Origin: Corynebacterium lactis
Lineage (GTDB): Bacteria; Actinomycetota; Actinomycetes; Mycobacteriales; Mycobacteriaceae
Direction of reading: 5' to 3'
Assembly (NCBI RefSeq): GCF_900519355.1
Contig: NZ_ULHE01000003.1
Span: 62,001 to 126,000, forward strand
Length of the DNA: 64,000 bases
A program made the position numbers and the translations under genes. Shown here one piece after another: positions 3,711 to 64,000 of the stretch (positions are counted from its first letter, which is position 1; each line of letters opens with the position of its first letter). The notes below the pieces were generated by a model. It did not search any database, was not told where the DNA came from, and worked only from the letters and a program-made list of their open reading frames with translations.

Positions 3711-4046
3711 CTACGACTGAATAAGTCCCCCAATGAAGTCTCGCAGCAGCACGAGTGTGTCGGGACAAATACTAAAATGCGCCCAATTTCCGCGCTGCTC
3801 CCTGCGCAGCACACCAGCTTCGACCAACTTCTTCAGGTGGTGCGACAGCGTCGGCTGGCTCACCCCGTATGTGTCAGGCATCGAACAGGCACACATAGAA
3901 TCCTGCTCCGACTGAGCCAGCGAGGTAACAATCCGCAGGCGGACCGGATCCGCTAAGGCCTTGAGCACCACAAGTCGGGCCTTTTCGTCGAAATCGTCGT
4001 CGGCAAGCTTTTGGCAACACGCAATCGGAGATCCAACACTGCTCAT
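3711..4046 (-). CDS. ArsR/SmtB-family metalloregulator, arsenic-type
   Basis: 111-aa winged-helix repressor starting at ATG 4046 (MSSVGSPIACC). The recognition helix region is GVSQPTLSHHLKKLVEAGVL. A vicinal Cys10-Cys11 pair plus Cys52/Cys54 (MCAC) matches the three-thiol As(III)/Sb(III) site of C. glutamicum ArsR1 (CC near the N-terminus plus one Cys in the helix before the DNA-binding helices). It is transcribed divergently from a permease gene, with perfect dyads between them, so autoregulation is likely. A longer upstream start is possible in frame but would run through the operators, so the shorter start is preferred. Confidence 0.88.
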   Translation of the reverse strand: MSSVGSPIACCQKLADDDFDEKARLVVLKALADPVRLRIVTSLAQSEQDSMCACSMPDTYGVSQPTLSHHLKKLVEAGVLRREQRGNWAHFSICPDTLVLLRDFIGGLIQS

Positions 4047-4062
4047 ACAAACAGCATAGGCA

Positions 4063-4086
4063 CGATATTGACACTCATCAATATCG
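4063..4086. promoter_or_regulatory. ArsR operator (9-bp inverted repeat)
   Basis: CGATATTGA and TCAATATCG form perfect 9-bp arms around a 6-bp spacer, 17 bp upstream of the arsR start and between the divergent genes. This is the size and AT-rich character of ArsR-family operators. Binding here would cover the arsR promoter. Confidence 0.7.
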
Positions 4087-4100
4087 GCGTATCGTTGGGT

Positions 4101-4120
4101 ATATCGATGGATTTCGATAT
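4101..4120. promoter_or_regulatory. Second probable ArsR operator
   Basis: ATATCG and CGATAT arms separated by 8 bp, about 15 bp beyond the first dyad and sharing its CGATAT half-site. It lies 59 bp upstream of the permease start, so it could control that direction. Confidence 0.5.
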
Positions 4121-4178
4121 CGATTTTGTCCGCCATCCGGCAACAACCGCCAAAATCTCCCGACCTAGGACAGCACTG

Positions 4179-5228
4179 ATGTCCGCAGATACACGCATTC
4201 CCCGACCTCACAGCACCACGCAGTCCGTACTGTGGCTGGGCATCAGCGCAGTGTGCTGGGCGCTACTCTACTGGGCCAACGGCCGAGTGTGGACCGCGCT
4301 CATACTGCGCCCGAGCGCCGACCAAGCAGGGCGGCTTCAGCAGGCCATCCACTTTTTCTTCTACGACTCCGGGAAAGTGCTCCTGCTGCTCTTCGCCACG
4401 GTTTTTGCGATTGGGCTCGTGCGCACAACCCTCAACCCCGAAGCCGTCCGTGAATACTTGCTGGACAAGCCGCTGTGGCTCTCGCTCCTGCTCGCGGTCC
4501 TGCTCGGCGCAATTACCCCGTTTTGCTCCTGTAGCTCGATCCCCCTCTTCATCGGCTTCGTCGCCGCAGGGGTCCCACTCGCGGTCACCCTGGCGTTCCT
4601 TCTCGCTTCCCCACTGGTCAACGAGGTAGCCGTCGTGATGCTAGCCCAATCCTTCGGATGGCCGATCACGGTAGCCTACGTTGCGTCGGGGCTCGGCATG
4701 GCGATGCTCATCGGCGCCATCCTGTCCCGGTTCGACCTCGACGACCAGGTCAAGGACTTCATCCGCAGCACGCCCACCAGCCGTCTCCACGCGACACAGC
4801 ACCGCCCGACGCTCGCAGAGCGCATCGACGCATCGATCGAAGAGACCAAGGAGATTGTCGGGCGCATCTGGAAGTGGGTCCTGCTCGGCGTCGGGGCCGG
4901 AGCTCTCATCCACGGCTGGATCCCGGCGGACTTCATCTCGACCTACGCGGGCAGCAACAGTCCCCTGGCTGTCCTGCTCGTCGTCGCACTCGGAGTCCCG
5001 CTCTACAGCAACGCCGCCGGGGTCATCCCCATCGCCGAGGCCCTCTGGAGCAAAGGCATGGCCACAGGCACGGTGCTGTCCTTCATGATGGCCACCGTCG
5101 CCCTCAGCATCCCCGAGTTCGTGCTGCTCAAGCAGGTTTTGAAGAACCGCCTGCTCGGCATCTACGCCGCGGCGGTGAGCGTCGCGATCATCATCATTGG
5201 AGTGAGCTTCAACATGATTTTCCACTGA
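4179..5228 (+). CDS. Permease of the ArsP / DUF318 family
   Basis: Encodes about 349 aa with eight or so membrane segments. The conserved GAITPFCSCSSIPLFIGF motif, with its cysteine pair, is diagnostic of the PF03773 permease family. A second conserved element is SNAAGVIPIAEAL. ArsP members export trivalent organoarsenicals; other members are uncharacterised. Divergence from an As-type ArsR, and a thioredoxin-like gene just downstream, support export of a thiol-reactive metalloid. The ATG at 4179 is chosen because upstream in-frame ATGs lie inside the operator region. Confidence 0.8.
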   Translation: MSADTRIPRPHSTTQSVLWLGISAVCWALLYWANGRVWTALILRPSADQAGRLQQAIHFFFYDSGKVLLLLFATVFAIGLVRTTLNPEAVREYLLDKPLWLSLLLAVLLGAITPFCSCSSIPLFIGFVAAGVPLAVTLAFLLASPLVNEVAVVMLAQSFGWPITVAYVASGLGMAMLIGAILSRFDLDDQVKDFIRSTPTSRLHATQHRPTLAERIDASIEETKEIVGRIWKWVLLGVGAGALIHGWIPADFISTYAGSNSPLAVLLVVALGVPLYSNAAGVIPIAEALWSKGMATGTVLSFMMATVALSIPEFVLLKQVLKNRLLGIYAAAVSVAIIIIGVSFNMIFH

Positions 5229-5550: not shown

Positions 5551-5571
5551 GGGGAAACGGGCGACATAGCC

Positions 5572-6093
5572 CTAAAACTCCTGAAATTCCTGCGCCTTCG
5601 GGCTCCAGTAGCCGACCTGCTCTGCCCTTAATGTCTTGAAGTGCGGGGACGTCGCCTCGTCCAGCGCGCGAATATAGTCCGGCACGGTGGCACGCGGGAT
5701 GCGCAACCCCATGGTCAGGTGCGGGATCCACCGGTCACCGCGCCCGTCCGGGTTCAGTCGGCTCAACTCGCGCGCCGCCCGCTCCAGCTCCTCGCTGGTC
5801 TCCAGCAACCACGCCACGGTCTGCTTGCCCTTCGTGCCGAAAACCACCGTGCCCATCCGCCGAAACTCCGCGGGCATCAGCGGAGGCAGGATTTCTGCCG
5901 CCCGCTTGACGACGTCTCCCCGCATCTCCGGCGCAAGAGTCAGCGTGATGTGTGGGGTCTGGTTTTGGACGGGGAAACCGCGTCGCCCTAGCTCCGCGAA
6001 AATCTCCCTGACCTGGCGTTCCTGATCGGCAGCGAGGCGCATCAGGATATTGTCGGGAGATACCACGTACCCATCATATGAGGGCTGCCACAA
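5572..6093 (-). CDS. 2'-5' RNA ligase family protein (2H phosphoesterase)
   Basis: A 173-aa protein with the two HxT motifs of the 2H superfamily: HITL at His48 and HLTM at His125. The spacing fits LigT/CPDase enzymes, which act on 2',3'-cyclic phosphates or 2'-5' linkages in RNA. The physiological substrate in actinobacteria is not known. It is convergent with the thioredoxin-like gene and ends 21 nt from it. No terminator is visible between them. Confidence 0.8.
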   Translation of the reverse strand: MWQPSYDGYVVSPDNILMRLAADQERQVREIFAELGRRGFPVQNQTPHITLTLAPEMRGDVVKRAAEILPPLMPAEFRRMGTVVFGTKGKQTVAWLLETSEELERAARELSRLNPDGRGDRWIPHLTMGLRIPRATVPDYIRALDEATSPHFKTLRAEQVGYWSPKAQEFQEF

Positions 6094-6733: not shown

Positions 6734-7813
6734 CTACACGTTAAACTTGAACTCCACGACGTCGCCGTCGTGCATGATGTAGTCCTTGCCCTCCTGGCGA
6801 ACCTTGCCATGCGCCTTGGCCTCGGCCATGGATCCGGCCTCAATCAGGTCGTTGTAGGAGACAATCTCGGCCTTAATGAAGCCACGCTCGAAGTCGGTGT
6901 GGATGACGCCTGCGGCCTGCGGGGCGGTCGCGCCCTTGCGGATCGTCCAGGCGCGGGCCTCCTTCGGGCCGGCGGTCAGGTAGGTCTGCAGGCCGAGGGT
7001 GCGGAAACCGGCGCGGGCCAGTGCGTGCAGGCCCGGCTCGGACTGGCCAATCTCGGCCAGCAGCTCGTTGCGGGACTCTTCATCCAGCTCCAGCAGGTCC
7101 GACTCGGCCTTCGCGTCGAGGAACACGCAGTCCGCCGGCTCGATGGCCGAGGCCAGTTCGGCACGGCGGTCTTCGTCGGCAAGCACATCCTCGTCCGCGT
7201 TGAAGACGTAGAGGAACGGCTTGGCGGTGAGCAGGTGCAGCTCGCGCAGGGCGGAGAGCTTGACGTCGTCGCCTGCGGCGAAGAGGGTGCGCCCCTCCTC
7301 CAGCACGGCCAGCGCCTTCTTGACTGCGTCGACCTCGGCGGCCTTCTCCTTGTCCTTCTTGGCTTCCTTCTCCAGGCGCGGCAGGGCCTTCTCAATGGTC
7401 TGGATGTCCGCCAGGATCAGCTCGGTCTCAATAACGCCGATATCGGAGGCCGGGTCGACCTTGCCGTCGACGTGGATGACGTCGTCGTCAGCGAAGACGC
7501 GCACTACCTGGCAGATAGCGTCGGCCTCGCGGATGTTGGCCAGGAACTTGTTGCCCAGGCCCTCACCCTCGGAGGCGCCCTTGACAATGCCCGCGATGTC
7601 CACGAAGGACACGGTGGCCGGGAGAATGCGCTCGGAGCCGAAGATCTCGGCGAGCTTATTCAGGCGCGGGTCGGGAAGCTCCACGACGCCGACGTTCGGC
7701 TCGATGGTGGCGAACGGGTAATTCGCAGCCAACACATCATTGCGCGTCAACGCGTTAAAGAGGGTTGACTTTCCGACATTGGGCAGACCGACGATTCCAA
7801 GAGTAAGAGTCAC
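6734..7813 (-). CDS. ychF: Redox-regulated ATPase YchF (Obg family)
   Basis: 359 aa, the normal length for YchF/OLA1. The P-loop is [14 protein letters not shown] near the N-terminus, and the C-terminal TGS-like domain ends in [11 protein letters not shown]. YchF prefers ATP to GTP, binds the ribosome and is linked to oxidative stress responses. GTG start at 7813. One copy of the 11-bp repeated word (7174-7184) encodes its VLADE segment. Confidence 0.97.
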
Positions 7814-9517: not shown

Positions 9518-10732
9518 GTGTCGAACAAATCAGCAGCAAACCGAACGCTCAGTGGCCCCAGGCCTCTCCTTCCCCGCGTCTCGATGCTGGTGCCGCCGCT
9601 GCTGATGATTCTGGCCGGAGTTCTCGGCGTCTTTTTCTCCGTCTCCAAAGGGACTATCGGCACCGCGTACCTGGTCACCTTCGCTATTGCGGCAATCGTG
9701 TCTGTGCTGCTCGTGGTCCCTCGGGGGCTCGTCGTCACCGTCGCACAGATCCCCATTGTCTACTCGGTCGTAACTGTCCTGACCGCGTGGTTCACCGGAT
9801 CGTTTGCCGACCCGGCCAACGGTGGCGCCACGGCGACGACCCCCACGAAGGCACGGCTCATCACCGCGGCCTATCCCATCATTCAGTACTTCCCCTGGCT
9901 CGCTGCGCTCATGGTTATCTGCAGCGCTATCGCCGTCTGGCGATACCTGGAGCTCACTCGAAAGAATGCGCTGTCAACCAACACGAAGGCGAAGGAGGCC
10001 AAGAAGCGCCAGCAGGACGCAGAGGCCACGATGGAAACCGCTTCCGAGGTGCGCCGTCATCTGACGGAATCCGACACTCGAGTGGAGCGAGCCCGCCGTT
10101 CGCTGGCCAGCGACAGGCCCGGGGATACCCGTCGTCCTGCCGCCGACATTATCCGCGCCGCGGAAGAACGCCGTCGCCAGCGCGCCGAGGCCTTGCGCCA
10201 TCAATCCGCACAGCGCCGCGGGCCTGTGGCACAGCCTCGTCCCACGGGGCAAGAATCCAACCCTTCGACGGACAATTTCTCGACGCGCCCAGCCCGCTCG
10301 GTGCGCCCGCAAAGGCAGGAACGGCCGGAACGGCTGGACAGGTTGGCACAGCCCAATCGACCAAACCCACAGAATAGGCCGAGCACGCGGGGTCCACAGT
10401 TCGAACCGAATCCCACTTCCCGCCGCCCGATCCAGCGCCCAGCGCCGTCTGGAACCGAATACCCCCGTCGTCAAGCCGTCCGTCCGGGTAGCGCCAATCA
10501 GGGCGGGCCGGGGCGCGTCTGGGGCGCGGACGAGTGGCCTCCGAGGCAGGAGCGGCCGCGCCACTCCATGCGGGAGACGCGTGAGGCTTCGCGACGCGTG
10601 TACGACCAAAGACGTAACAACGGCGCCGACGACCGCTCCGGCAGGCGCGAGTGGGGTGAGCGAGGCGACCGGGGTGACCGAGGCGAGCGGGGCGAATGGG
10701 GCCCGTGGCGCGAACGGGACAAGCGCGCCTAG
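9518..10732 (+). CDS. DUF6542-like membrane protein with long charged tail
   Basis: About 404 aa from GTG 9518, chosen because a TAAAAT -10 element sits 8 nt upstream (leaderless) and the upstream TTG in frame lies inside a terminator. Residues about 25-150 hold four membrane segments (for example LVPPLLMILAGVLGVFF and YFPWLAALMVICSAIAVWRY). The rest is a disordered Arg/Pro/Glu-rich tail with RGDRGDRGERGEWG-type repeats near the end. The position directly upstream of xseA and the membrane part fit the DUF6542 proteins of corynebacteria (from memory). Function unknown. Confidence 0.7.
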   Translation: MSNKSAANRTLSGPRPLLPRVSMLVPPLLMILAGVLGVFFSVSKGTIGTAYLVTFAIAAIVSVLLVVPRGLVVTVAQIPIVYSVVTVLTAWFTGSFADPANGGATATTPTKARLITAAYPIIQYFPWLAALMVICSAIAVWRYLELTRKNALSTNTKAKEAKKRQQDAEATMETASEVRRHLTESDTRVERARRSLASDRPGDTRRPAADIIRAAEERRRQRAEALRHQSAQRRGPVAQPRPTGQESNPSTDNFSTRPARSVRPQRQERPERLDRLAQPNRPNPQNRPSTRGPQFEPNPTSRRPIQRPAPSGTEYPRRQAVRPGSANQGGPGRVWGADEWPPRQERPRHSMRETREASRRVYDQRRNNGADDRSGRREWGERGDRGDRGERGEWGPWRERDKRA

Positions 10733-13003: not shown

Positions 13004-13014
13004 CGTCGGCAAGC
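13004..13014 (+). repeat. Intergenic copy of the 11-bp repeated word CGTCGGCAAGC
   Basis: One of 15 exact copies found by eye in this window. Plus orientation: 3998, 7174, 13004, 28443, 35554, 37509, 39953, 54422 and 63689. As GCTTGCCGACG: 19054, 30227, 31415, 43807, 54164 and 62372. This is the only copy outside a gene. Near matches with one change lie near 33718, 52816, 56650 and 60978. Confidence 0.75.
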
Positions 13015-15968: not shown

Positions 15969-16673
15969 GTAAGCAATGTAGACGATACAGAACACGAAGG
16001 TGCCCCCCAGACCGAACGGGAATCAGAATCCCTCCCGGAAATCGGCCTCCGCGAACTAAAGCGACTCAAGACCCATCGTGACCTCGCCGATGCCGCCTCC
16101 TCGCTCGTCCTGGAAAAGGGCTACGACTCCGTCAACATCGAGGACATCTGCGAGCGCGCACACATTAGCCGCAGGACCTTTTTCAATTACTTCGAGTCCA
16201 AGGATCAGTCGATCTTCGGCAAGGGCATAATCCACTTTGGCGAGGAGGACGAGGAAGAGTTCCTCGCCACCACGCACCAGGACCCCATCATGGAGATGCT
16301 CACCCAAATCGAGCGCAAGAACCGGGAAGTCCTGGCCAAGGAAATGGCCCTGGACAACACCAGGGAGTTCCACCGGAGTTTGCGCGATCGTCGCCAGGAG
16401 ATTCTGCGCGAGGAGCCAAAGCTGTCCTCCGTCGTGGTGGCCTACTTCAGCCGCTCGATGCGGAGGGTTCGCTCAGCATTCGAGCGCTATTTCGAGGCCC
16501 ACCCGGAGTCGCGCAACTTCCCAGAACTCCCTACCGAGCACGAAGTCACGCTTTCGATGGGATTCGTCCGCGAATGCGTGCTCTACTCCGCCCTTCATCT
16601 CGATATCTTTGATACTGAAACCCCGCTTCACGACGCCGCGAAGGTCGTCACAACTTTCATGAGGAGGATGTAA
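15963..16673 (+). CDS. TetR-family transcriptional regulator
   Basis: 236 aa from GTG 15963. The N-terminal HTH region is LVLEKGYDSVNIEDICERAHISRRTFFNYFESKD. The ligand domain is unassigned. Its stop (TAA) is immediately followed by the ATG of the exporter gene, so the two form one operon, and the dyad over its start suggests negative autoregulation relieved by an exporter substrate. A further in-frame start exists upstream, but the GTG inside the dyad fits a leaderless mRNA. Confidence 0.88.
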   Translation: MQVSNVDDTEHEGAPQTERESESLPEIGLRELKRLKTHRDLADAASSLVLEKGYDSVNIEDICERAHISRRTFFNYFESKDQSIFGKGIIHFGEEDEEEFLATTHQDPIMEMLTQIERKNREVLAKEMALDNTREFHRSLRDRRQEILREEPKLSSVVVAYFSRSMRRVRSAFERYFEAHPESRNFPELPTEHEVTLSMGFVRECVLYSALHLDIFDTETPLHDAAKVVTTFMRRM

Positions 16674-19018: not shown

Positions 19019-19843
19019 TTACCTTCTGCGCTTGCCTCGCCCGCCCGACTTCCGCTTGCCGACGGCCCCACCGTTACCGTTATTTCCACCCTTGCCGGCC
19101 CGCCGCGCCTGCTTCGCTAGCGTCTTCTCGCGGGCGCTTAGCCTCTTCGGCTCAGATTCGGCGGCCGCGCGCCCGAGCTGCGCCCGAGTCGAGCCTTCGC
19201 GGCGGCCCTGCACGATGCCGACGAATTCCTGGCGGATCTCATCGTCGCTGGCCTTCGGCCACACCAGCCAAATGGAGGTCTTCGACATTGGCGCCACGCC
19301 CTCCGCCTGCTCCTGGGAGTCGACGTCGACGAGGTTGGAGGAAGAAATTGCCTTCTTCGACAGGGTCTTCAGGATTGTCCGCGGCCCCACCACGACGCCT
19401 GCGCCGGTCGCCGCGACCGGCAGCATCTGCCGCAGCTGTGCCGGGTCCGTGGAGGTGAGCAGGATCGTTTCGTCGCCAAGCAGGGGAAGGGCGATGGATT
19501 CGGAGAGGGAGAAGACGTGCTCCTTCTCGAAGGCGACGCCCCACGCCTCGTCGTAGAGGCGGATGCGGTGCAGGGAGTCGGGCAGCGCTGCATCGGGGCG
19601 CGCCGCACCTGGCTGTCCTGGCTGGCCTGGCTGGTCTGCCTGGACGGCGCCTGTCGAGGGCAGGCGGACGATGGCCATATCGGCGGCACCCGACTCGAGC
19701 GCCTCCATCGGGTCATCGAACGCCTCGGGGGCAAGCCGGGCAATCCGGGCCGGGATCCGCTGCGAAAAGCGGCGGAACCACTTTTCGGGGCTGGTGCCCA
19801 TGGCGAAGGCGATGCGCAGGGTGACGGAGTCAGGAGTCGACAT
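19019..19843 (-). CDS. LysR-type substrate-binding domain protein with basic tail
   Basis: About 274 aa from ATG 19843. The sequence (LRIAFAMGTSPEKWFRRF, then ADMAIVRLP and LYDEAWGVAFEKEH) matches the periplasmic-binding-like effector domain of LysR regulators, but there is no N-terminal helix-turn-helix. The C-terminus is a Lys/Arg/Gly-rich tail (GKRKSGGRGKRRR), perhaps for nucleic-acid contact. Such HTH-less proteins next to DUF5997 genes are a conserved actinobacterial arrangement (from memory). Function unknown. A copy of the 11-bp word encodes AVGKR in the tail. Confidence 0.7.
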   Translation of the reverse strand: MSTPDSVTLRIAFAMGTSPEKWFRRFSQRIPARIARLAPEAFDDPMEALESGAADMAIVRLPSTGAVQADQPGQPGQPGAARPDAALPDSLHRIRLYDEAWGVAFEKEHVFSLSESIALPLLGDETILLTSTDPAQLRQMLPVAATGAGVVVGPRTILKTLSKKAISSSNLVDVDSQEQAEGVAPMSKTSIWLVWPKASDDEIRQEFVGIVQGRREGSTRAQLGRAAAESEPKRLSAREKTLAKQARRAGKGGNNGNGGAVGKRKSGGRGKRRR

Positions 19844-23050: not shown

Positions 23051-23109
23051 TCCTCCCCCACAGAGCCCAGCGCTTTACGACGGCGCCCACGACGACGTCT
23101 CCATAACGG

Positions 23110-23146: not shown

Positions 23147-23290
23147 ACCTTTCCCGGCGGGGACCGAGGGCCCCGTCGTCAAGCAGATCACAAGGCGAAA
23201 AGCACAAGCCCTACCCTGAGAATTACCCCCGAGAAAGCTGGCTATGAAATGAGACGGCTATCTCATATACTAAGACTCATCGTAATTATA

Positions 23291-45549: not shown

Positions 45550-45586
45550 CGCGTCACACGCTTGACGACGAATCGTACTACGCGGA

Positions 45587-46864
<1,278 letters not shown>

Positions 46865-46946: not shown

Positions 46947-47819
46947 CTACGCCGACTGGTTCAGCGCGTAGTTCGCCGCAGCATCTCGAACATCGCGAAG
47001 ATACTGCTCAGACTGGTTATATGAGCGAACCGCCGAAGCCCACCCTTCCGGGGTGGCGAGGTCGCGGCCACCGCTGCACAACATTCTGGCGGTCGTCGCG
47101 GTCGCATCGTCGATGTTATTAGGGTCCGCAACCCCGTCCCCAGAAGCGTCCGTCGCAAAGCGAGCCCATGTCTCGGGGATGAACTGCATCGGGCCGACCG
47201 CCCTGTCGTACTCGGTGTCCCCGTCGAGGGCGCCATGGTCCGTGTCGCGCACCTCCGCGAACGCGCCCGTGCCGTTGAGGGAAGGCCCGATGATCGGGGG
47301 CCGGACGACGCCGTCAGGATCAATCCGCGAGGGGTTGAGCCAGTTGCCCGAGTAGGTACCGTGCCTCGTCTCGATCTGGCCGATTCCGGCCAGGGTATTC
47401 CAGGCCAGGTGGCACTCGGGATAGGACTCCGCCGCGATGAGGTAGGCGTTTCCGTACGCCCTCACCGCATCCTCCGAGATGCCGGTGGCCTGCGCGATCG
47501 GCTGCGCCCACTGATGCAGCTGGTCGGAGGTCCGGCCGGGGGCGTGAATGTCGACTAGCGGCGGGGCTGCCGCGGCGGCCGGCGGAACATGGTCCGGGAT
47601 GGGCTGCTTATTCAGCGAGGGAACAACCGGTCCCGCGATCATGCTCAGCGCACCGACCGTTCCGATGATGATGAGTACCGCCAGCGAGGTCAGCCCCAGG
47701 CAGCCACAACCGCGGGACTTCGCCTTCCGGCCATTTCCCCGCCCACGCGCTTGCCCACGGCCAGAAGCCCCGCGGGGTGCGGGGCGGGCGTACTCATCAA
47801 AAGGCGGATTCGCAGGCAT
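46947..47819 (-). CDS. Lytic transglycosylase-like cell wall protein (LpqU-like)
   Basis: 290 aa. Basic N-terminus, membrane anchor GLTSLAVLIIIGTVGALSMIAGPVV, Pro/Ala-rich linker, then an SLT-type muramidase domain with the catalytic Glu in LAGIGQIETRHGTYSG and AVGPMQFIPETWARFATD. It cleaves peptidoglycan glycan strands outside the membrane. Corresponds by position to Rv1022 (LpqU), but no lipobox is evident, so it is membrane-anchored here. Confidence 0.88.
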   Translation of the reverse strand: MPANPPFDEYARPAPRGASGRGQARGRGNGRKAKSRGCGCLGLTSLAVLIIIGTVGALSMIAGPVVPSLNKQPIPDHVPPAAAAAPPLVDIHAPGRTSDQLHQWAQPIAQATGISEDAVRAYGNAYLIAAESYPECHLAWNTLAGIGQIETRHGTYSGNWLNPSRIDPDGVVRPPIIGPSLNGTGAFAEVRDTDHGALDGDTEYDRAVGPMQFIPETWARFATDASGDGVADPNNIDDATATTARMLCSGGRDLATPEGWASAVRSYNQSEQYLRDVRDAAANYALNQSA

Positions 47820-47897: not shown

Positions 47898-48872
47898 TTA
47901 CTCGCTGACCGACTCTGGCCCCTGCTGTGCGAGGGCGTCGAGCTGCGCCAGGAAGGCGCGAGCCGCCTTGCGGGTACGCTCCTCCGCGCCGGAGGTAGTC
48001 TCCAGGCCGGGAGTCGGAACCAGGATTTCCACCGGAATCTCCGCATCGGAAAGCCCCAGGGCGCGGGCGCGGGAAATCGCCTGCTCAGCCAGCGCCAATG
48101 CCGGGAGCTGCTCCGACGGCTGCGAGCGAGGAGTCCTGCGCCCGGCGTTCCACAGCTTCTCCTGCTCGGCCTCGGACACCATCTGCCCCTCCTGCACGGA
48201 GCCATCGAAGAGGTAGGGCTGGCGGGCGCGCATCTTCAGGACGAAACCGGCGGCGACACCGTCGAAGTCGAAGTCCTCAGCGATTTCCGCGTGGAAAAGG
48301 ATCTGCAGGAGAAGGTCGGAGAGCTCGCTGCGAATGTCCCCGCCCTCATTGACCGCGTCGACGAACTCGTACGTCTCCTCAATCAGGTATGGCAGGAGGC
48401 TCTGATGAGTCTGCTTAGCCTCCCACTCGCCCATACTCCGCGCGGCGGCCATAACGTCGACGGCCTCCTCGACGTGGGGCAGCCGGGAGCGCGCCGGAAC
48501 AGGTTCCGCCTGGGCCGACTCTGACTGGGTCGGCTCCGCCTGTTCACTCTCCGGGGCGGACCCGGGAGTGGCCTCGGGCGTGACCTCAGTGCCCGCGGCA
48601 GCGTCAGGCACCGGAGTCGGCGTCGGGGCGTCGTCAAGCCCGACGGAGTAGACCTTCTCGCCCCGGTCGAGGCGGTCGAGGACCTCGTCGTTGTCCATAT
48701 CGGTGGTGACCAGCACCTCGGCGGTGGACACGGAGTGCCCGCCGGCATCGGCGATGGCCCAGCGCACGCGGATGGGGACCTCTTCGGTGTAGCTGACCTC
48801 ACCTGTCAGCAGGTTGGCGGCCTCCAGCGGAATTGCCGTTGGGAACCGGCCATCGAGCTTGATGACAGTCAT
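47898..48872 (-). CDS. mazG: Nucleoside triphosphate pyrophosphohydrolase MazG
   Basis: 324 aa. An N-terminal domain is followed by a disordered Pro/Glu/Ser linker (about residues 82-128), then the MazG helices with metal motif EETYEFVDAVNEGGD and ELSDLLLQI. It hydrolyses abnormal (d)NTPs. The start is only 7 nt after the mfd stop, so translation is coupled. Mycobacterial MazG is of similar length. Confidence 0.92.
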   Translation of the reverse strand: MTVIKLDGRFPTAIPLEAANLLTGEVSYTEEVPIRVRWAIADAGGHSVSTAEVLVTTDMDNDEVLDRLDRGEKVYSVGLDDAPTPTPVPDAAAGTEVTPEATPGSAPESEQAEPTQSESAQAEPVPARSRLPHVEEAVDVMAAARSMGEWEAKQTHQSLLPYLIEETYEFVDAVNEGGDIRSELSDLLLQILFHAEIAEDFDFDGVAAGFVLKMRARQPYLFDGSVQEGQMVSEAEQEKLWNAGRRTPRSQPSEQLPALALAEQAISRARALGLSDAEIPVEILVPTPGLETTSGAEERTRKAARAFLAQLDALAQQGPESVSE

Positions 48873-48879: not shown

Positions 48880-51800
48880 CTAGTCCTTTCCGATGTGCGA
48901 GATATCCATCCGGGGGATGCCCGCCATTGACGTCAAGAAATCTGCGACCCACTGCACCAGCGCGACGTCTCGCACCGGCTTGGCCCGAAGCCCCTTGCCC
49001 TCCTTCGGCATACCGACGGACACCGTCCTGGTGGCCGCCCTATATGTCGACTGCGGGTAGAGGCGCTTCAGGCGTACTTGCTTGGAGTCAGCAAGTTCCA
49101 TAGGGGCTATCTTAATGTGCGCACCCATCGCTTGAACTTCATGCACGCCGAATTCGCGACAAATAATTCGAAGTCGCGAAATTACCGCCAGGCGCTCCAC
49201 CTCAATGGGTGGGGCACCGTAGCGGTCGACCAACTCCTCGAGCACAACGTCGATATCATCCAGCCCCTGCGCCGAGGCGAACTTGCGGTAGGCCTCCAGG
49301 CGCAGGCGTTCCGACGACACGTACTCGGCGGGAATGTTGGCGTCGACCGGAAGGTCAATGCGGACTTCCTTCGGCTCCTCCTCGCTGGCCTCCGGCGTGC
49401 CCCCATCCGCCACGGTCTTCAGCGCGGCGACGGCCTCGCCGACCAGCCGGACGTACATGTCGAATCCGACGCCAGCGATGTGGCCGGACTGCTCGGCGCC
49501 CAGGACGTTGCCGGCGCCGCGCATCTCCAGGTCTTTCATGGCTACGGCCATGCCCGCGCCGAGGTCGTTGTTCTGCGCGATGGTAGCCAGGCGGTCGTAG
49601 GAGGTCTCGGTCAGGGTGATGTCCGCCGGGTAGAGGAAGTAGGCGTAGGCGCGCTCACGAGAACGGCCGACGCGCCCGCGCAGCTGGTGGAGCTGCGACA
49701 GTCCCATGTGGTGGGCGTTTTCCACGATCAGGGTGTTGGCGTTGGCGATGTCCAGGCCCGTCTCGACGATGGTGGTACACACCAGGACGTCGTACTCGCG
49801 CTTCCAGAAACCGTCGACGGTGCGCTCTAGTTGTTCCTCGCCCATCTGTCCGTGGGCGACGCCAACGCGCGCCTCCGGCACCAGGTTGCGGACCCGCTGC
49901 GCGGCCTTGTCAATGGTCGCAACCTTATTGTGCAGGTAGAACACCTGGCCGTCGCGAAGCAGCTCGCGCCTGATGGCGGCGGCGATCTGCTTGTCGGACT
50001 GCGCGCCGACGTAGGTCAGGACGGGGTGACGGTCCTGCGGTGGGGTGAGGATCTGGCTCATCTCGCGGATGCCGGCAATCGACATCTCGAGGGTGCGCGG
50101 GATCGGGGTCGCCGACATGGTCAGCACGTCGACGTGGTGACGTAGGGCCTTGATGTGCTCCTTGTGTTCGACGCCGAAGCGCTGCTCCTCGTCGACGATG
50201 ACCAGGCCCAGCTCCTTCCACTGCACGCCGGTCTGCAGGAGGCGGTGGGTGCCGATAACGATGTCGACCTCGCCGTTTTTCAGCCCTTCCAGGACCTTCT
50301 TCGACTCCTTCGGGGAGGTAAAGCGCGACAGACCGCGGATGGTGACCGGGAAGCCCTCCATGCGCTGGGTAAAGGTGGCCAGGTGCTGCTGCGCCAGCAG
50401 CGTAGTCGGCACCAGCACCGCGACCTGGCGGCCGTCCTGCACGGCCTTAAACGCGGCACGCAGCGCGACCTCGGTCTTGCCGTATCCGACGTCGCCGATC
50501 AGGACGCGGTCCATCGGCACCGGCTTTTCCATGTCCGACTTGATCTCGTCGATGGCCTGGAGCTGATCCTCGGTCTCAGTGAAGGGGAAGTTGTCCTCCA
50601 TCTCCGTCTGCCAGGGCGTATCCGGCGCGAAGGCGTGGCCCGGCGAGGCCTGCCGCTCGGCGTAGAGCTTGACCAGCTCCTCCGCGATCTCGCGCACCGC
50701 GCCGCGGGCCTTGCGCTTAGTGGACTTCCAGTCCGAGCCGCCCATCTTCGACAGATGCGGCTTCTCCCCTCCGACGTAGCGGGAGAGCAGATCCAGACTC
50801 TCCATCGGGACGTAGAGCTGGTCGGCGGGACCGCCCCGCTTGCTCGGCGCGTACTCGAGCACGACGTACTCGCGCCGCGCTTGATCCTCACCGGTGCCAA
50901 TCGTGCGCTCAGTCAGCTTCACGAAACGCCCGATGCCGTGGGTGTCGTGGACGACGTAGTCGCCAGCTTTCAGCGCCAGCGGGTCGACGCGGCCGCGCCT
51001 CTTCACGGGCTTGCGGCGCCCGCCCAGCGCGCCGTCGGCGACGCGGTTGCCGGTGAGGTCCTCCTCCGTCACCAGGGTCAGGGCGCCGCCCGGGATGCGG
51101 GGGAAGACCAGGCCGCCGTGCAGCACGCCCTGGTAGACGGTCACGCGCCCCGGCTCCGGCTGCTCGGGGCCGGTCGCCACTCGGGTCGCAATCCCCGCCT
51201 CGCGGAACTTCTCCGCCTGACGACGCGCCCCCGCCGGCGTCGCCGCCACGTAGGCCGCGCGCTCGCCGCCGACCGTCGCGTCGCGCAGCTGCTTCATCAT
51301 GGCGCCGATGGCCTTCAGGTCGCCACGCGGGGCCGGGCCCGGCTCGAAGGTCAGAGGTAGGACGTCCCCCTCGTCGACGCCTGCCTCCAGCATGCCGGGC
51401 GGCGAGATGCTCCAGGACGGGGACATGTCGATGCTGGCCAGGCTGCGGTAGGCGCTGGGCTCCAGGCCGTCCGTCGCGATCGGGGCCGAGCCGCCCATCG
51501 CCGCGGTCTCCCAGGCAGCCGCCATGAACTCCTCGCCGGCGCTGATCAGGTCGGCCGCGCGGGAGCGGATCCGCTCCGGGCTACACATCAGCGTGTGGGC
51601 GCCCTCCGGCATCATCTCGGTCAGCATCCTCATCGGATGCTTCGTCAGCAGCGGAATCAGGGCCTCCATGCCATCGACCCACTGCCCGTCGGAAATCCGG
51701 GTCAGCATCTCCTGGACCTGCCCGGTGCGCGTCGCCGCCAGCTCTTCCGCGGCGGCCTTGACCTCGTCGTCGATAAGCAGGGCACGGCAGGGGTAGACGT

Positions 51801-52488
51801 CGAGAGAATCGATCTCGACCTCGGCGATGGTGCGCTGGTCCCCGACGGAGAAGGCGCGAATGTCGGTGACCTCGTCGCCCCAGAGCTCGATGCGCACGGG
51901 CAGTTCCGCGTTGGCGGCGAAGACGTCGACGATGCCGCCTCGCACCGCGAACTGGCCGCGACGCCCCACCATGTCCACGTGCGAGTAGCCGTGGTGAACC
52001 AGGCGCTCGACGAGGTCCTCGCAATCGGCGTCGCGACGAATCTCGATGGGGCCCGCGGCGGCGTCGGACCGGTCGTCCACGATGGGCTGCACCAGCGAGC
52101 GCACGGCCGCCACCAGTACCGTCACCTTCCCGTCGGAGACCTCTCGCAGCGCTTTACGACGGCGCGCCACCGTGTCCACGGCGGGTGAGAGTTTCTCGTG
52201 CGGCAGGGTTTCCCAGGAGGGGAACATCGCGACCCGGTCGCCGATCATGGAGGAGACCTCGGCGGTGAGATCCTCCGCCTCACGGCCGGTCGCGGTGACG
52301 ACCAGCACCGGAGTCTTGGTGGACAGCGCGTGAATGAGGTGCGAGCGCACCGAGTCCACGCCGGACAGCGCAAGGCCGTCCTCCCCCACGCGCCCCAGCA
52401 CGCCGACGAACTGAGGATCAGTTGTTATCAGCCCCGCCAGCCCGGATAGCGGGTGGACCTGGGTGGCGGTGCGAGGCGAAGTTGGCAT
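48880..52488 (-). CDS. mfd: Transcription-repair coupling factor
   Basis: About 1202 aa. UvrB-like N-terminal part ([14 protein letters not shown]), RNA polymerase-interacting domain ([17 protein letters not shown]), Walker A in [20 protein letters not shown] box in [14 protein letters not shown] and the translocation motif [14 protein letters not shown]. It removes stalled RNA polymerase and recruits UvrA. ATG 52488 is preferred: TATATT lies 7 nt upstream, and the TTG three codons earlier falls in that spacer. Confidence 0.97.
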
Positions 52489-53471: not shown

Positions 53472-54968
53472 ATGTCAAACGGTTCGGCCACCGCTGTGGT
53501 CATTCTGGCCGCAGGCCAGGGCACCCGCATGAAGTCGGATACGCCGAAGATGCTGCACGCCATCGGCGGGCGCACCATGCTGGAGCACGCCCTCTACGCG
53601 GCCGCGGGCATTGACCCGGAGCAGATTGCGGTCGTCGTTGGCCACCAGAAGGACAAGGTCATCGAGGCTGTCCAGGAATGGGTCGGCAAGACCGGGCGCT
53701 CCGGCGTCACTATCGCTCACCAGGCCGAACAGAAGGGCACCGGGCACGCCGTCCAGTGCGCCCTGGACGACGAGGCACTGAAGGACTTCGAGGGCACAAT
53801 CCTGGTCACGACCTCCGACGTCCCGCTGCTCGACTCCGCAGCACTGTCCGCCCTTCTTGCGGAGCACAACCGCAAGCCCCGAGCCGCCGTGACCGTGCTC
53901 ACCTCCACCGCGGATAACCCGCACGGCTACGGACGCATCGTCCGCAACGCCGACGGCGAGGTCCTGCGCATCGTCGAGGAAAAGGACGCCACCGCCGACG
54001 AGCGCGCGATCACCGAGGTCAACTCCGGCGTCTACGCCTTCGACGCCACGACCCTGGCCAGCGCCCTGTCCCAGCTGGATACCAACAACGCGCAGGGCGA
54101 GCTGTACCTGACCGACGTCATCGGCATCGCCCGCGAGGCCGACCGCTCCGTCCGCGGCCACCGGCTTGCCGACGCCACCGTGGTCGCCGGCGTCAACGAC
54201 CGCGTGCAGCTCGCAAATCTGGGTCGCGAACTCAACCGCCGCCTGTGCGAGGCGGCCATGCGCGGCGGCGCGACCATCGTCGACCCGGCCACCACCTGGA
54301 TCGACGTCGACGTCCAGATTGGCCGAGACGTCACCATCCTGCCGGGCACGCAGCTCCACGGCACGACCGTCATCGGCGACGGCGCCACCGTCGGCCCGGA
54401 TACGACGCTGACCAACATGACCGTCGGCAAGCGTGCGAGCGTGGTGCGCACCCACGGATTCGATTCGGAGATCGGCGAGGAGGCCAACGTCGGCCCCTTC
54501 ACCTACATCCGCCCCGGCACGAAGCTGGGCGCGCAGGCGAAGCTGGGCGGCTTCGTGGAGGCGAAGAACGCGCAGATTGGCACGGGTTCGAAGGTGCCGC
54601 ACCTGACCTACGTCGGCGATGCGGAAATCGGCGAGCACTCCAACATTGGAGCTTCGAGCGTCTTCGTCAACTACGACGGAGTCAACAAGCACCGCACCGT
54701 TATCGGCAGCCACGTGCGCACCGGATCGGACACCATGTTCATCGCTCCGGTGACCGTGGGTGATGGAGCGTACTCGGGTGCGGGTACTGTTATTAAGGAT
54801 GACGTTCCTCCGGGGGCGCTCGCGGTCAGCGGTGGTCGCCAGCGCAATATCGACGGATGGGTTGCCCGCAAGCGTCCCGGCACTGCTGCTGCCGAGGCCG
54901 CCCAGGCCGCCCAGGCCGCCCAGGCAGCGGAGAACGCCAGCAACACCAAGGAAGACCAGGAAGGCTAG
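53472..54968 (+). CDS. glmU: Bifunctional GlmU (uridyltransferase / GlcN-1-P acetyltransferase)
   Basis: 498 aa. N-terminal pyrophosphorylase loop [15 protein letters not shown], then the left-handed beta-helix with [20 protein letters not shown] and the acetyl site SSVFVNYDG. It makes UDP-GlcNAc for peptidoglycan and mycothiol. The C-terminus carries [11 protein letters not shown], from near-perfect 9-bp repeats at about 54896-54925. Two 11-bp words occur, encoding RLADA (54164) and TVGKR (54422). Confidence 0.97.
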
Positions 54969-56039: not shown

Positions 56040-57410
56040 CTAGATGGTAATTGGCTCCGAGGCACTGGATCCTCTGGCCTGCCTTGCGATGCGGTAGAGG
56101 TTGTACTCCCACTCCTTCAGCTCTGCCGGCATCTCTCCCTTCTCCGGGTTCCGGAGGTACTCACGGCGCTCGGCGTCGTAGCCCCACAGCCAGTCGACGT
56201 ACTTGAACCAGCCGGACTCCGCCTGGCGAAATACCTCGTTGCGGATCAGTCGGGCGAGCCCGTCGACGTGCCAGAGCTCGCCCCAGAAGCGTCCCGTGGA
56301 CTGGATGCGCTTGCAGCGTGGAGCGCGCTCGGCCGACACTTCCTCCAACACGTCCTTCCAGACGAGCTGGCCCCCCTCGGCGGCCTCGGAGGCAAACAGG
56401 GCCAGGCATTCCGCGTCTTCCATCGCCATCACCGCGCCCGAGGCCAGGTACTGTAGCGGCGGGTGGGCGGCGTCTCCCATGAGGATGATGCGGTCGCTGA
56501 CCACCCAGTTGTCGATCGGGTCGCGGTCGGACATCTGCCACCAGGTGTCCAGCCACATCTGGTCCAGGCGCCCCTGGATGAACTCATTGGTGTGGCCGTA
56601 GGCCTCGCGGAACTCGTCGTTGTTGCCCCAGTCTTCCGGAACCTCGGTGCCGTCGGTAAGCGCGCGCAGGTAGCGCGGCGACTGGAACACGGCGACCTGG
56701 TTGAGCAGCTCACCGCCGCGCAGCGGGTACTGGATGAAGTGACAGCGCGGGCCGATGTAGCCGACGACGTCCTTCAACTCGCTCATCTCCGGATCAGTCG
56801 GCAGGTCGGAGGTGCCGCGGTAGGCGACGTAGGCCGACGGGACTGCCTCGTCGGTGACCAGGTGCTTGCGGAACACGGAGTGGATGCCGTCGAAGGCGAC
56901 CAAGAGATCGGCGGAGTCGTGCGTGATCTCGCCGGTGTCGACGTTTTTCAGCTCCGCCACCACGCGGTCCGGCTCGGTGTCGGCGCCCAGCACCTTCGTA
57001 CCGTTGACCAGCTTTGTACCGGCCTCGCGGGCGGCCTCGATGAGGAGGCTAAGCAGGTCGGAGCGGTGGATGACCAGGTAATTACTGCCGTAGTGCTCCT
57101 CGAACTCCTCGTCGAAGTTCATGGTGAGGATCGGCTCGCGGGTGATCGCGTCGCGGAATTGCATGCGCTCGGGCAGGTAGCCCAGCTCCAGTGCGCGCTC
57201 CTTCAGTCCCCACTTCTGCAGCATCTTCACGCCGTGCGGGCCGATCTGTAGGCCGGCACCGACCTCCTTAAACTCGCGGCTGCGCTCGTAGAGGGTCACA
57301 TCCGCGCCACGCAGCGACAGCGCGAGGGCGCCCGCGGCACCGCCAATTCCGCCGCCGGCAATGATGACCTTCTGGCCCGCGAGGTTGCGATCAATGTTCT
57401 GTGCGTTCAT
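56040..57410 (-). CDS. 3-hydroxybenzoate 6-monooxygenase
   Basis: 456 aa FAD monooxygenase from ATG 57410 (SD AAAGGAA). FAD motif [18 protein letters not shown] segment [15 protein letters not shown] and the [15 protein letters not shown] motif. Close in form to C. glutamicum and Klebsiella 3-hydroxybenzoate 6-hydroxylases, which convert 3-hydroxybenzoate to gentisate with NADH. It lies downstream of the transporter gene and opposite the ring-cleavage genes. Confidence 0.9.
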
Positions 57411-61680: not shown

Positions 61681-61688
61681 TCCCCGGC

Positions 61689-62417
61689 ATGACTAATTTT
61701 CATGATCTCCCCATCGAGGAGCGACTCAGCCTGGTTCGCCGTGGCACTGCCCACTACTCTGGCCAGCTCGCGCTGATCGATAACGAGGACTTCCAGCGCC
61801 CGACCCTGCTCGAAGGCTGGAACGTGGCCACGTTGGCGGCGCACGTCGCCTACAACGCCAACGCGCTGTGCAACCTGATGCACTGGGCGGAGACCGGCGA
61901 GGAGACCCCGATGTACGCCTCCCCGACCGCCCGCAACGAAGAAATCGCCCGTGGCGCCACGCTGCGCCCGGACGCGATCCGCAACCTACACGACCACACC
62001 CTCGTGCGCCTCGACGTCGCCTGGCGCGATGCCACCGAGCAGGCGTGGCAGGCGGAAGTCCGCACCGCGCAGGGCCGTACCGTTCCCGCGTCGGAAACCC
62101 TGTGGATGCGTGCCCGTGAGGTATGGATCCACGCGGTCGACCTCAAGGTCAAGGCTGCTTTCGAAGACATTCCCGAGGTCATCCTGCGCACGCTGCTGCC
62201 GGAGATCGCCGGCAAGTGGCGCAGTGGCGGCGTCGGAAGCGAACTGGCGCTCGTCGACGCCTCCTCGGGCAACCGCATCGAGGTCTCCCCCGGCTCCGCG
62301 ACGGTTGAGGTTCACGGCGATCTGCCCGGCCTGGTCCGCTGGGCCACGGGTCGCGGCGGCGAGGGGGTCCGGCTTGCCGACGGCTCTGCCGCGCCCGAAC
62401 CTCCCCGCTGGCTGTAG
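61689..62417 (+). CDS. Mycothiol-dependent maleylpyruvate isomerase
   Basis: 242 aa from ATG 61689 (MTNFHDLPIEERLSL), nearly the N-terminus of the C. glutamicum enzyme; a GTG overlapping the previous stop is an alternative. DinB-like metal ligands: His52 (AAHVAYNANALCNLMHW) and Glu144/His148 (REVWIHAVDL). It isomerises maleylpyruvate to fumarylpyruvate using mycothiol, consistent with mca in this window. The 11-bp word at 62372 encodes RLADG. Confidence 0.95.
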   Translation: MTNFHDLPIEERLSLVRRGTAHYSGQLALIDNEDFQRPTLLEGWNVATLAAHVAYNANALCNLMHWAETGEETPMYASPTARNEEIARGATLRPDAIRNLHDHTLVRLDVAWRDATEQAWQAEVRTAQGRTVPASETLWMRAREVWIHAVDLKVKAAFEDIPEVILRTLLPEIAGKWRSGGVGSELALVDASSGNRIEVSPGSATVEVHGDLPGLVRWATGRGGEGVRLADGSAAPEPPRWL

Positions 62418-62648
62418 CGACGCGCCCGGAAAATGACGACACTGGACGACCCGTCTAGTTTGTTATTTCTCCGGGCGCTCTACTACACTCTTCCCGGTAA
62501 GTCTCGGCGAGGGCGGCCCTATATCCAGTGGCTGCCGTTATCGACGCGACGCTCGCAGTCCCCACAGGCGCCCCACGGGTCCTTCCTGGATAGCGGCACG
62601 TGCTCGACTCGACGACTCAATACACGAATCGTTTAGGAGTCCATTCCC

Positions 62649-63290
62649 ATGGCAAAGCCCAACATCATCAAGATTGAAGCTCGTAACCGCACCGAGTTCG
62701 GCAAGGGTGCCGCCCGCCGCGCCCGCGTTGCCGGCGACATCCCGGTCGTCATCTACGGCGCGGACCTCGAGGCCCCGAAGCACATCCTGGTTGACTCCCT
62801 GGAGTTCCACTCCATCGTCCGTAACCACGGCGTCAACGCTGTTCTGGACGTCGACATCGAGGGCGAGTCCCAGCTGTCCATGGTCAAGGCCGTTGACCAG
62901 AACCCGCTGACCTTCAACATCGACCACGCCGACCTGCTCGCCATCCACCGTGGCGAGAAGGTTGAGGTCGAGGTTCCGGTCGTCGCCACCGGCGAGGTCG
63001 CCCCGGGCGCCCTGCTCATGCAGGATGCCGAGACCATCCTGGTCGTCGCTCCGGTTCTGTCCATTCCGGAAGAGATCGAGGTTTCCGTCGAGGGCGCCGA
63101 GATCGGCACCCAGATCCACGCCGGCTCCGTTGCCCTGCCGGAGGGCCTCGAGCTCGCCGACGACGCCGAGCTGCTCATCTTCAACATCGTCGAGCCGGAG
63201 GAGGACCCGGCCGGTGACGTCGATGCCGACATCGAGGGCATGGGCGAGGCCGAGCTGCCGACCGAGACCGCCGAGGGCGAGGGCGAGTAA
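62649..63290 (+). CDS. rplY: 50S ribosomal protein L25 (CTC family)
   Basis: 213 aa, the long general-stress form. N-terminal 5S-rRNA-binding domain (EARNRTEFGKGAARRARVAGDIP) and C-terminal TL5 domain, with an acidic tail ending EGEGE. AGGAG 9 nt before the ATG. In related genomes rplY follows prs closely; here 6.7 kb lies between them. The 230 nt before it contain no convincing gene, only its probable promoter region. Confidence 0.96.
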   Translation: MAKPNIIKIEARNRTEFGKGAARRARVAGDIPVVIYGADLEAPKHILVDSLEFHSIVRNHGVNAVLDVDIEGESQLSMVKAVDQNPLTFNIDHADLLAIHRGEKVEVEVPVVATGEVAPGALLMQDAETILVVAPVLSIPEEIEVSVEGAEIGTQIHAGSVALPEGLELADDAELLIFNIVEPEEDPAGDVDADIEGMGEAELPTETAEGEGE

Positions 63291-63325
63291 TTCTCGCGCG
63301 CGAGTAATCACCTCGTAGAAAATTC

Positions 63326-63356
63326 AAGGGGACGGAAATCTTCCGTCCCCTTTTTT
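63326..63356 (+). terminator. Intrinsic terminator after rplY
   Basis: Perfect 12-bp stem AAGGGGACGGAA/TTCCGTCCCCTT with a 3-nt loop, followed by TTTTTT. Confidence 0.93.
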
Positions 63357-63379
63357 CGTGCTCCTCCCTGGCCGCCTCC

Positions 63380-64000
63380 CTATCGGCGCTGCCGCACCAT
63401 GAGGGCCAGAGCTGGGGCGATGAGCACCGCGTTGCCGACTGCCATGGCGACGGCCATCGCGGGCACTCCCCCGGCGTCGGCGACAACGCCGAATACGAAC
63501 GCACCCGCGGGGATCAGCACGCGGTCCGTCTGGGAGATACCTGAGAAGAGGCCTCGGTGCTCCTCGGGGGCGAGCAGGAGGGTCGCTGCCCTGTTGGAGG
63601 TGCGGTAGAGCTGGCCCACCAGCCCAATCGCCCCGACTGCGGCCAGGCCCGCCGCCGCGGGAAGGGCCCCGGAGCAGGCCAGGGCCAGCGTCGGCAAGCT
63701 AAGCGCCGCGGCGGAGACCGCGGCAATCGCGCCCGGACGCGGCGGCAGCAGCCTCTTGAGGCACACCGCGCCCACGACGGCGCCGAGCCCGCCCGCTGCG
63801 GAGAGGTAGGCGATACCTGCCTGCGCGCCCCCTCCGAAGACGGTGTGGGCGATTACCGGCAGCATCGCCGTGTAGGGGAAGATGCACAGCATCGGGCCCG
63901 CGGCGAGGATCAGCTGGGCGCCGAGCCGGAGGCTGCGGCGCACCTCGCGCGCGGCGACCGGCCACGGGGAGGCCGACGGTCGGGACTGGGCAGCGGGGGC
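63380..64000 (-). CDS. C-terminal part of an MFS transporter, cut by the right edge
   Basis: The frame is open from the window edge to a TAG at 63382-63380, giving about 206 residues. It has five or six membrane segments (for example LILAAGPMLCIFPYTAMLPVIAH and GLAAVGAIGLVGQLYRTSNRAATLLL), in the pattern of the second half of EntS-like (MFS_3) exporters. Substrate unknown. The peptidyl-tRNA hydrolase gene expected after rplY in this lineage is not here. An 11-bp word at 63689 encodes SLPT, a frame different from most copies. Confidence 0.75.
   Translation of the reverse strand, partial: APAAQSRPSASPWPVAAREVRRSLRLGAQLILAAGPMLCIFPYTAMLPVIAHTVFGGGAQAGIAYLSAAGGLGAVVGAVCLKRLLPPRPGAIAAVSAAALSLPTLALACSGALPAAAGLAAVGAIGLVGQLYRTSNRAATLLLAPEEHRGLFSGISQTDRVLIPAGAFVFGVVADAGGVPAMAVAMAVGNAVLIAPALALMVRQRR

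Follow-up and report, generated by a model that had tools for sequence, protein, structure and literature searches.

CRTCGNNAAGC, a dispersed DNA word of Corynebacterium under selection and a likely DNA uptake sequence

The window analysed here is a 64-kb stretch of the Corynebacterium lactis genome G000 (C8:62001-126000; 2,568,615 bases in 13 contigs), over which a short word, CGTCGGCAAGC, is scattered within and between genes. It occurs in 15 exact copies, nine on the plus and six on the minus strand, at precisely the coordinates and in the orientations given by an earlier sequence-only reading of this DNA. Dinucleotide shuffling yielded a mean of 0.06 copies and a maximum of 1 (100 shuffles), and a stricter null, a fifth-order Markov model of the window itself, predicted 0.80. 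Allowing at most one mismatch, 38 sites were found against 3.5 expected, and another form, CGTCGTCAAGC, is enriched independently (8 copies, 0.18 expected). The peptide contexts previously named were recovered (LAD in seven of the 15 copies, VGK in three, SAS in two and SLPT in one), but two copies (3998 and 13004), and not one, are intergenic according to a simple gene caller.

Single-base variants of the word were tallied in a 464-kb sample of the genome, consisting of the window and 20 stretches of contig C4 and containing 116 exact copies; they are frequent only at positions 6, 7 and 9, with little variation elsewhere. Since the variants sit at few positions, and other species use other spacer or dialect forms, a wider motif, CRTCGNNAAGC, was counted. 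The 11-mer originally proposed as the unit is real and enriched, but it had missed this wider motif with its free two-base spacer and the dialects of different species. All window sites are listed below with their state in two relatives aligned to the window, G055 and G033, where "identical" denotes the same 11-mer at the aligned position.

3998..4008, plus strand, exact CGTCGGCAAGC, outside called genes
5904..5914, minus strand, motif CGTCGTCAAGC
7174..7184, plus strand, exact CGTCGGCAAGC, identical in G055 and G033
10466..10476, plus strand, motif CGTCGTCAAGC
10586..10596, minus strand, motif CGTCGCGAAGC
13004..13014, plus strand, exact CGTCGGCAAGC, outside called genes, identical in G055
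16625..16635, minus strand, motif CGTCGTGAAGC, identical in G055 and G033
19054..19064, minus strand, exact CGTCGGCAAGC
19471..19481, plus strand, motif CGTCGCCAAGC, CGTCGGCAAGC in G055 (only spacer changed), not kept in G033
21043..21053, minus strand, motif CGTCGTGAAGC, identical in G055 and G033
23072..23082, minus strand, motif CGTCGTAAAGC
23174..23184, plus strand, motif CGTCGTCAAGC, CGTCGTAAAGC in G055
26666..26676, minus strand, motif CGTCGTCAAGC, CGTCGTAAAGC in G055
27161..27171, plus strand, motif CGTCGAGAAGC, identical in G055
28443..28453, plus strand, exact CGTCGGCAAGC, identical in G055
30227..30237, minus strand, exact CGTCGGCAAGC
30904..30914, plus strand, motif CGTCGCCAAGC
31415..31425, minus strand, exact CGTCGGCAAGC
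34196..34206, minus strand, motif CGTCGTCAAGC, identical in G055 and G033
35554..35564, plus strand, exact CGTCGGCAAGC, identical in G055, spacer variant in G033
36607..36617, minus strand, motif CGTCGCGAAGC, spacer variants in G055 and G033
37509..37519, plus strand, exact CGTCGGCAAGC, identical in G055, not kept in G033
39242..39252, minus strand, motif CGTCGTCAAGC, spacer variant in G033
39798..39808, minus strand, motif CGTCGATAAGC
39953..39963, plus strand, exact CGTCGGCAAGC
43807..43817, minus strand, exact CGTCGGCAAGC, spacer variant in G055, not kept in G033
45560..45570, minus strand, motif CGTCGTCAAGC, spacer variant in G055
46702..46712, plus strand, motif CATCGCGAAGC, identical in G055, not kept in G033
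47151..47161, plus strand, motif CGTCGCAAAGC, identical in G055, CATCG form in G033
48044..48054, plus strand, motif CATCGGAAAGC, not kept in G055 or G033
48629..48639, plus strand, motif CGTCGTCAAGC, identical in G055, not kept in G033
49950..49960, plus strand, motif CGTCGCGAAGC, identical in G033, not kept in G055
51768..51778, plus strand, motif CGTCGATAAGC, identical in G055 and G033
52151..52161, minus strand, motif CGTCGTAAAGC, identical in G033, not kept in G055
54164..54174, minus strand, exact CGTCGGCAAGC in a glmU-like gene, CATCGGTAAGC in G055, not kept in G033
54422..54432, plus strand, exact CGTCGGCAAGC in the glmU-like gene, identical in G055 and G033
56651..56661, plus strand, motif CGTCGGTAAGC
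62372..62382, minus strand, exact CGTCGGCAAGC
63689..63699, plus strand, exact CGTCGGCAAGC

Among the window sites alignable to G055, 21 of 25 keep the motif, seven of them changed only at free positions (the spacer or R), and 12 of 19 keep it in G033; at the ten sites alignable to the motif-less Corynebacterium pygosceleis (G040), it is never kept. Across the whole genome, CGTCGGCAAGC has 603 copies in 2.57 Mb (287 plus, 316 minus; about one per 4 kb, or 235 per Mb), compared with two copies of the reversed word, one on each strand. It is the commonest form of CRTCGNNAAGC, which itself occurs 1,669 times, roughly once per 1.5 kb, against 92 for the reversed pattern. The flanks had been described as not conserved, and they do diverge about as fast as the surrounding sequence; beyond the 11 bp, however, the 464-kb sample shows base preferences, which we read as codon bias, and no AT-rich flanks.

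The test set beforehand against the claim of a DNA-level signal was a comparison with a codon-aware expectation. Genes were called with a simple picker of open reading frames based on codon usage (76% of the 464-kb sample), and synonymous codons were shuffled within each gene 200 times. Coding copies of CGTCGGCAAGC numbered 83 in G000 against 5.34 after shuffling (standard deviation 1.97, maximum 14), and, over 400 kb sampled from G055, 68 against 2.58 (maximum 8); the wider motif gave 220 against 37.9 and 179 against 23.1, respectively. The claim of a DNA-level signal therefore held, both in this comparison and at the synonymous positions described below. As 83 of the 116 exact sites (72%) lie in called genes, which cover 76% of the sequence, sites are neither excluded from genes nor gathered in them. 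The commonest frame encodes LAD (51 of the 83 coding copies), and the unusual use of CTT for its leucine, noticed earlier in the window, extends to the 464-kb sample, with CTT at 58 of 129 LAD leucines and at 6.9% of all leucine codons.

Divergence between genomes points in the same direction. When stretches of G000 were aligned to G055 (about 82% identity), 60 of 82 motif sites kept the motif, 41 of them unchanged, and mismatches affected 50 of 738 bases at the nine fixed positions (6.8%), 33 of 164 in the NN spacer (20%) and 449 of 1,954 in the flanks, taken as 12 bases on either side (23%; core versus flanks, Fisher p 2e-25). The reverse comparison, over 86 sites, gave 57/774, 35/172 and 449/2,028 for core, spacer and flanks, and the core also stayed below the flanks in G033 (20 sites; 24/180, 7/40 and 120/473). 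Reversed-pattern control sites were few (7, 6 and 3) and diverged like flanks (16/63, 11/54 and 6/27). Four-fold degenerate third positions differed at 15 of 117 places in the core (13%), 9 of 14 in the spacer and 8,062 of 17,451 elsewhere (46%), so that peptide conservation alone does not explain the pattern. Taken together, these comparisons indicate that selection acts on the motif as DNA and not as protein.

The layout along the chromosome was followed in G055, assembled as one contig that has a dnaA-like gene at base 1 and reverses in GC skew near 1.4 Mb, using 20 evenly spaced 20-kb stretches (400 kb). No replication polarity was detected there, with exact sites split 48 leading to 48 lagging and the wider motif 132 to 113 (p 0.25), in agreement with the earlier argument that this is no FtsK-polarity motif; likewise, no trend from origin to terminus was seen, counts per 20 kb being Poisson-like (variance/mean 0.93). 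A strand polarity suggested by apparent long plus-strand runs was ruled out by the genome-wide strand counts, by 40 plus to 61 minus copies on contig C4 and by nine to six in the window. Neighbouring sites are spaced slightly more evenly than random in G000 (coefficient of variation 0.81; 21 gaps below 200 bp, 33 expected) and nearly at random in G055 (0.91; 27 and 28).

At least five motifs occur in every one of the 40 stretches of 20 kb sampled from G000 (contig C4) and G055. In contrast, the first 20 kb of each of four small contigs, taken from three motif-bearing genomes, contained 0, 2, 0 and 3 motifs against 8.7, 8.7, 8.3 and 10.0 expected, a total of 5 against 35.7 in 80 kb. Two of the four are recognisable, one by a TrwC relaxase (a plasmid) and one by a phage tape-measure protein. 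The 44.5-kb contig with the TrwC relaxase, G028:C2, also bears a second DprA-family gene (G028:C2:43485-44057, E 2.9e-53).

The distribution of the motif was assessed in 61 Corynebacterium genomes, an even draw from a larger group. The wider motif reached 5.1-21.7 times the reversed control (320 to 1,969 copies) in 48 of them and stayed near the control (0.9-2.7 times) in 13. In a draw of 148 genomes from the class, which included four other genera of the family, only G000 was enriched, the other 147 lying at or below 2.6 times the control, and 13 named loci from other Mycobacteriales genera (239 kb) showed no enrichment, with 14 motifs against 21 reversed. The exact word was surveyed in 201 genomes of the family, 16 from this genus and 185 from others. 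Some of the latter exceed the reversed control moderately (54 versus 6 copies in G222, of 6.3 Mb; 57 versus 15 in G143; 93 versus 30 in G102); the excess is 3 to 9 times the control in G222, G143, G156 and G212 (genus g23) and G102 (genus g15), at fewer than 15 copies per Mb versus 235 in G000, and both genera lay outside the wider-motif count of the 147 class genomes.

Within Corynebacterium, positions 2, 6 and 7 vary by species, giving rise to dialects. The forms found in other species are CGTCGATAAGC and CGTCGAGAAGC in G007, CGTCGACAAGC in G015, CGTCGAGAAGC in G018, and CATCGGCAAGC in G005 and G052. The CATCG form makes up 1,021 of 1,118 copies in G005 and 680 of 708 in G052, compared with 51 of 1,669 in G000 and at most 17% in the other 46 motif-bearing genomes; in G003, which adjoins G005 on the tree, it accounts for 125 of 1,046. 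Adenine at position 6 is present in 1,011 of 1,490 copies in G018 against 266 of 1,669 in G000. The motif of G052 may also extend upstream, as GGCATCGGCA occurred 20 times against 2.05 expected and GGCATCGGCAA 10 times against 0.58 in 60 kb.

A tree of a single gene (GlmU), covering 30 of the 61 genomes and named species, grouped ten of the 13 genomes that lack the motif with C. variabile, C. kalidii and C. spheniscorum in a single clade; these three species have 0 or 1 motif each in 21 kb. The remaining motif-less genomes, namely C. pygosceleis (together with C. marambiense), G038 and G013, fell separately among motif-bearing relatives, and the motif-bearing G012 branches first at a weakly supported fork. 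On the simplest reading of this one gene, the motif would have arisen once and been lost at least four times. A k-mer scan of motif-less G013 and G040 (220 kb and 100 kb) for a hidden dialect gave no comparable word. In 60 kb each of other motif-less species, different words are enriched, namely CCTCCGCCAGG in G038 (10 versus 0.41), CGACGCCACC in G009 (11 versus 1.08) and GGCGTCAATA in G053 (8 versus 0.46). C. pygosceleis itself retains the wider motif at 2.7 times the control genome-wide, although the motif is kept at none of its alignable window sites; a recent loss may have left these copies as a relic, yet some genomes outside the genus reach 2.6 times.

We interpret CRTCGNNAAGC, mostly CGTCGGCAAGC in G000, as the likely DNA uptake sequence of Corynebacterium, with a probability of about 0.62. 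Uptake sequences are the nearest known class because the word is short and asymmetric, is present in about a thousand selected copies without polarity, is, as far as the wider motif was counted, enriched in one genus only, with dialects and motif-less lineages, and is depleted on the four small contigs; among the three functions previously suggested (uptake, chromosome organisation, and nuclease or modification), uptake appears to fit best. Of the features by which the class is recognised, Corynebacterium displays a short word (9-12 bp) in hundreds to thousands of copies above the codon-aware expectation, related dialects in related species, no replication-strand polarity in the 400 kb of G055, and the machinery of natural transformation, the last equally in motif-less genomes; inverted pairs, typically linked to terminators in the class, are rare. 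As preferential uptake is the defining property of the class, and the inverted-pair habit of genomes with DNA uptake sequences (DUS) is not shared here, the motif is filed as a likely and not a proven member.

The word would then likely act as a self-recognition tag, favouring DNA of the cell's own kind on uptake. A surface receptor, probably located at or close to the Tad/Flp pilus, would recognise the word in free DNA, bias uptake accordingly, and pass the DNA to ComEA and ComEC. Repeated transformation with related DNA might spread and maintain the copies, each uptake event favouring the alleles that carry the tag. A fuller version of this proposal, to which we give only slightly better than even odds, holds that this is the first Gram-positive uptake sequence and a third independent origin of such sequences, ancestral to Corynebacterium, read by a Tad/Flp pilus receptor, limiting gene exchange across species through its dialects, and lost, along with receptor specificity, on at least four occasions.

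The genes needed for such a process are widespread, ComEC and DprA being present in all 61 genus genomes and an actinobacterial Tad ATPase in 60, 58 of them above the family cut-off. In G000, the tad locus comprises, in order, the Tad ATPase, two T2SSF proteins (one below the Pfam cut-off), a pilin of the Flp type (DUF4244) and two small proteins that match no Pfam family; its ComEA combines SLBB and HHH domains. Of 19 tad loci, 17 yielded a Flp-type pilin, and two small pilin-like proteins were recognised in 16 and 17 of them; in many species, the final small protein of the cluster shares a conserved AGP-type C terminus (e.g. L163, L161, L165). In Micrococcus luteus, another actinobacterium, the published text consulted describes ComEA, ComEC and DprA orthologues together with tad clusters, and a requirement of transformation for ComEC and Flp pilus genes (PMC4322843). 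This is the same set as in Corynebacterium, which speaks for an uptake sequence.

Several observations weigh against it. The tad and com genes also occur in motif-less species (19 tad and 21 com loci), so that the machinery does not predict the motif, and no receptor was found when Flp, TadE/F-like and ComEA proteins were compared by eye, no feature tracking the motif. ComEC of G000 (L152:6016-8294, contig C4) is split into two overlapping frames of 387 and 382 aa in this assembly, which could reflect an assembly error, an inactive gene or a switch; it is a single frame of 709 aa in G055 and 666 aa in G033. ComEC length, which at first looked greater in motif-less genomes, was rejected as a correlate, these two motif-bearing genomes standing against 568 and 469 aa in motif-less G013 and G040. 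Inverted pairs within 60 bp are rare (2 of 268 neighbours in G000 and 3 of 225 in G055). In the comparison with G033, a more distant relative, the spacer varies hardly more than the core over the 20 sites. The 72% of the window alignable to G055 holds 8 of the 15 exact and 25 of the 39 wider sites, and hence shows no enrichment of the motif in the core genome. Finally, no account of natural transformation with sequence preference in Corynebacterium was found in a literature search that covered few subscription papers. The same search, in which the matches listed bore unrelated titles, returned no description of the word, its complement or its dialects as a signal; a survey of dispersed motifs reports, in the portion consulted, CRISPR-related pairs for three corynebacteria (PMC5217627).

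Two further candidate correlates of the motif were discarded. Bar a partial hit in motif-bearing G020, the lowest Tad ATPase scores were those of eight of the 13 motif-less genomes, and G023 gave no hit; these nine genomes sit within one clade, and motif-less G013, G040, G038 and G053 score normally. TadB/TadC layouts are mixed relative to motif state.

The best-surviving alternative, an unlikely one in our estimation, is chromosome organisation, in which a nucleoid-associated, condensin-loading or segregation protein binds CRTCGNNAAGC throughout the chromosome. The presence of sites everywhere along it, their slightly even spacing in G000 (near random in G055) and their scarcity on the four small contigs would all suit a chromosome mark. 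Such a mark would nevertheless be expected to display origin-to-terminus or strand trends, as do the FtsK-orienting polar sequences (KOPS), matS and parS; moreover, an essential chromosomal function would hardly be absent from several lineages, and dialect drift would require a coevolving binder.

A little less probable still is a Chi-like site, at which a helicase-nuclease (perhaps AdnAB in Actinobacteria) would be switched from degrading self DNA to recombining it. The density of the exact word and the small-contig depletion resemble Chi, and an enzyme other than RecBCD could read the word; yet RecC (PF04257) was found in none of the 61 genus genomes, in a search that had a positive E. coli control and covered RecC, not AdnAB, and the even division between leading and lagging strands differs from the leading-strand bias of Chi where this is known. 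Known Chi sites are, in addition, shorter (5-8 bp) and less over-represented. Both the replication orientation and the RecBCD-type reader (searched for as RecC) that characterise Chi were absent.

A self mark in genome defence, with a nuclease or modification system sparing or marking DNA that carries the word, is improbable. It would account for the depletion on the four small contigs and for a genus-level distribution with motif-less lineages, but restriction sites tend to be shorter and to be avoided instead of enriched, an asymmetric word found roughly once per 1.5 kb would be an unusual methylation target, and no linked gene turned up, though no genome-wide search for one was made. Ordinary sequence bias, whether it stems from codon usage, from a frequent peptide such as LAD or VGK, or from mutational pressure, draws some support from the prevalence of the LAD frame and from those other genera of the family in which the exact word is in excess and codon bias might explain it, but for G000 it is already refuted by the synonymous shuffles, the excess of CTT, the conserved four-fold sites of the core and the retention of the motif with different spacers in other species.

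Uptake sequences have so far come from two Gram-negative families, and the reasons for their origin, and its mechanism, have long been debated. Should CRTCGNNAAGC prove to be one, a third origin with a different pilus, about a thousand tags per genome, dialects and motif-less lineages would open that question to comparative tests. Natural competence would be predicted for most corynebacteria, and the motif would reveal what DNA they admit, account for the barriers that limit gene flow between species of the genus, and offer a practical tag for the genetics of species that are hard to transform. Even with another function, roughly a thousand DNA sites under selection per genome, in a genus as well studied as this one, need an owner.

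Among known dispersed words, HIP1 of cyanobacteria is likewise highly iterated within genes; it is palindromic, whereas the word described here is non-palindromic and has dialects and a spacer. KOPS, the SpoIIIE recognition sequences (SRS), matS and parS are chromosomal DNA words bound by a protein and showing origin/terminus or strand trends; the corynebacterial word is also chromosomal, but lacks polarity or a regional pattern, including the strand skew towards the terminus typical of KOPS/SRS (FtsK). Chi, the mark of self DNA for RecBCD/AddAB, read by RecC in E. coli, has a similar spacing to the exact copies; the present word differs in being longer, in having no strand polarity and in occurring where RecC was not found.

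The uptake signal sequence (USS) of Pasteurellaceae is a short word with over a thousand copies, two dialects and AT-rich flanks. The corynebacterial motif shares the copy number and the existence of dialects, and differs in its unrelated word, in its flanks, which are not AT-rich, and in the rarity of inverted pairs. The DUS of Neisseriaceae is read by the minor pilin ComP. Here, the genus is Gram-positive, the word is unrelated, the core is split by a largely free two-base spacer and inverted pairs are few; the pilus genes are Tad/Flp, not type IVa, and no ComP-like receptor is known. DUS are mentioned for Neisseria in the section consulted of a review of DNA uptake by pili (PMC6370729). The corresponding section of a study of Neisseriaceae names both DUS and USS, calls the requirement for such sequences unique, and reports inverted DUS pairs in high numbers and eight DUS variants that follow phylogeny (PMC3630211). 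With this system, as far as that section describes it, the motif shares a short non-palindromic word, very many copies, frequent placement inside genes and dialects around a fixed core (PMC3630211).

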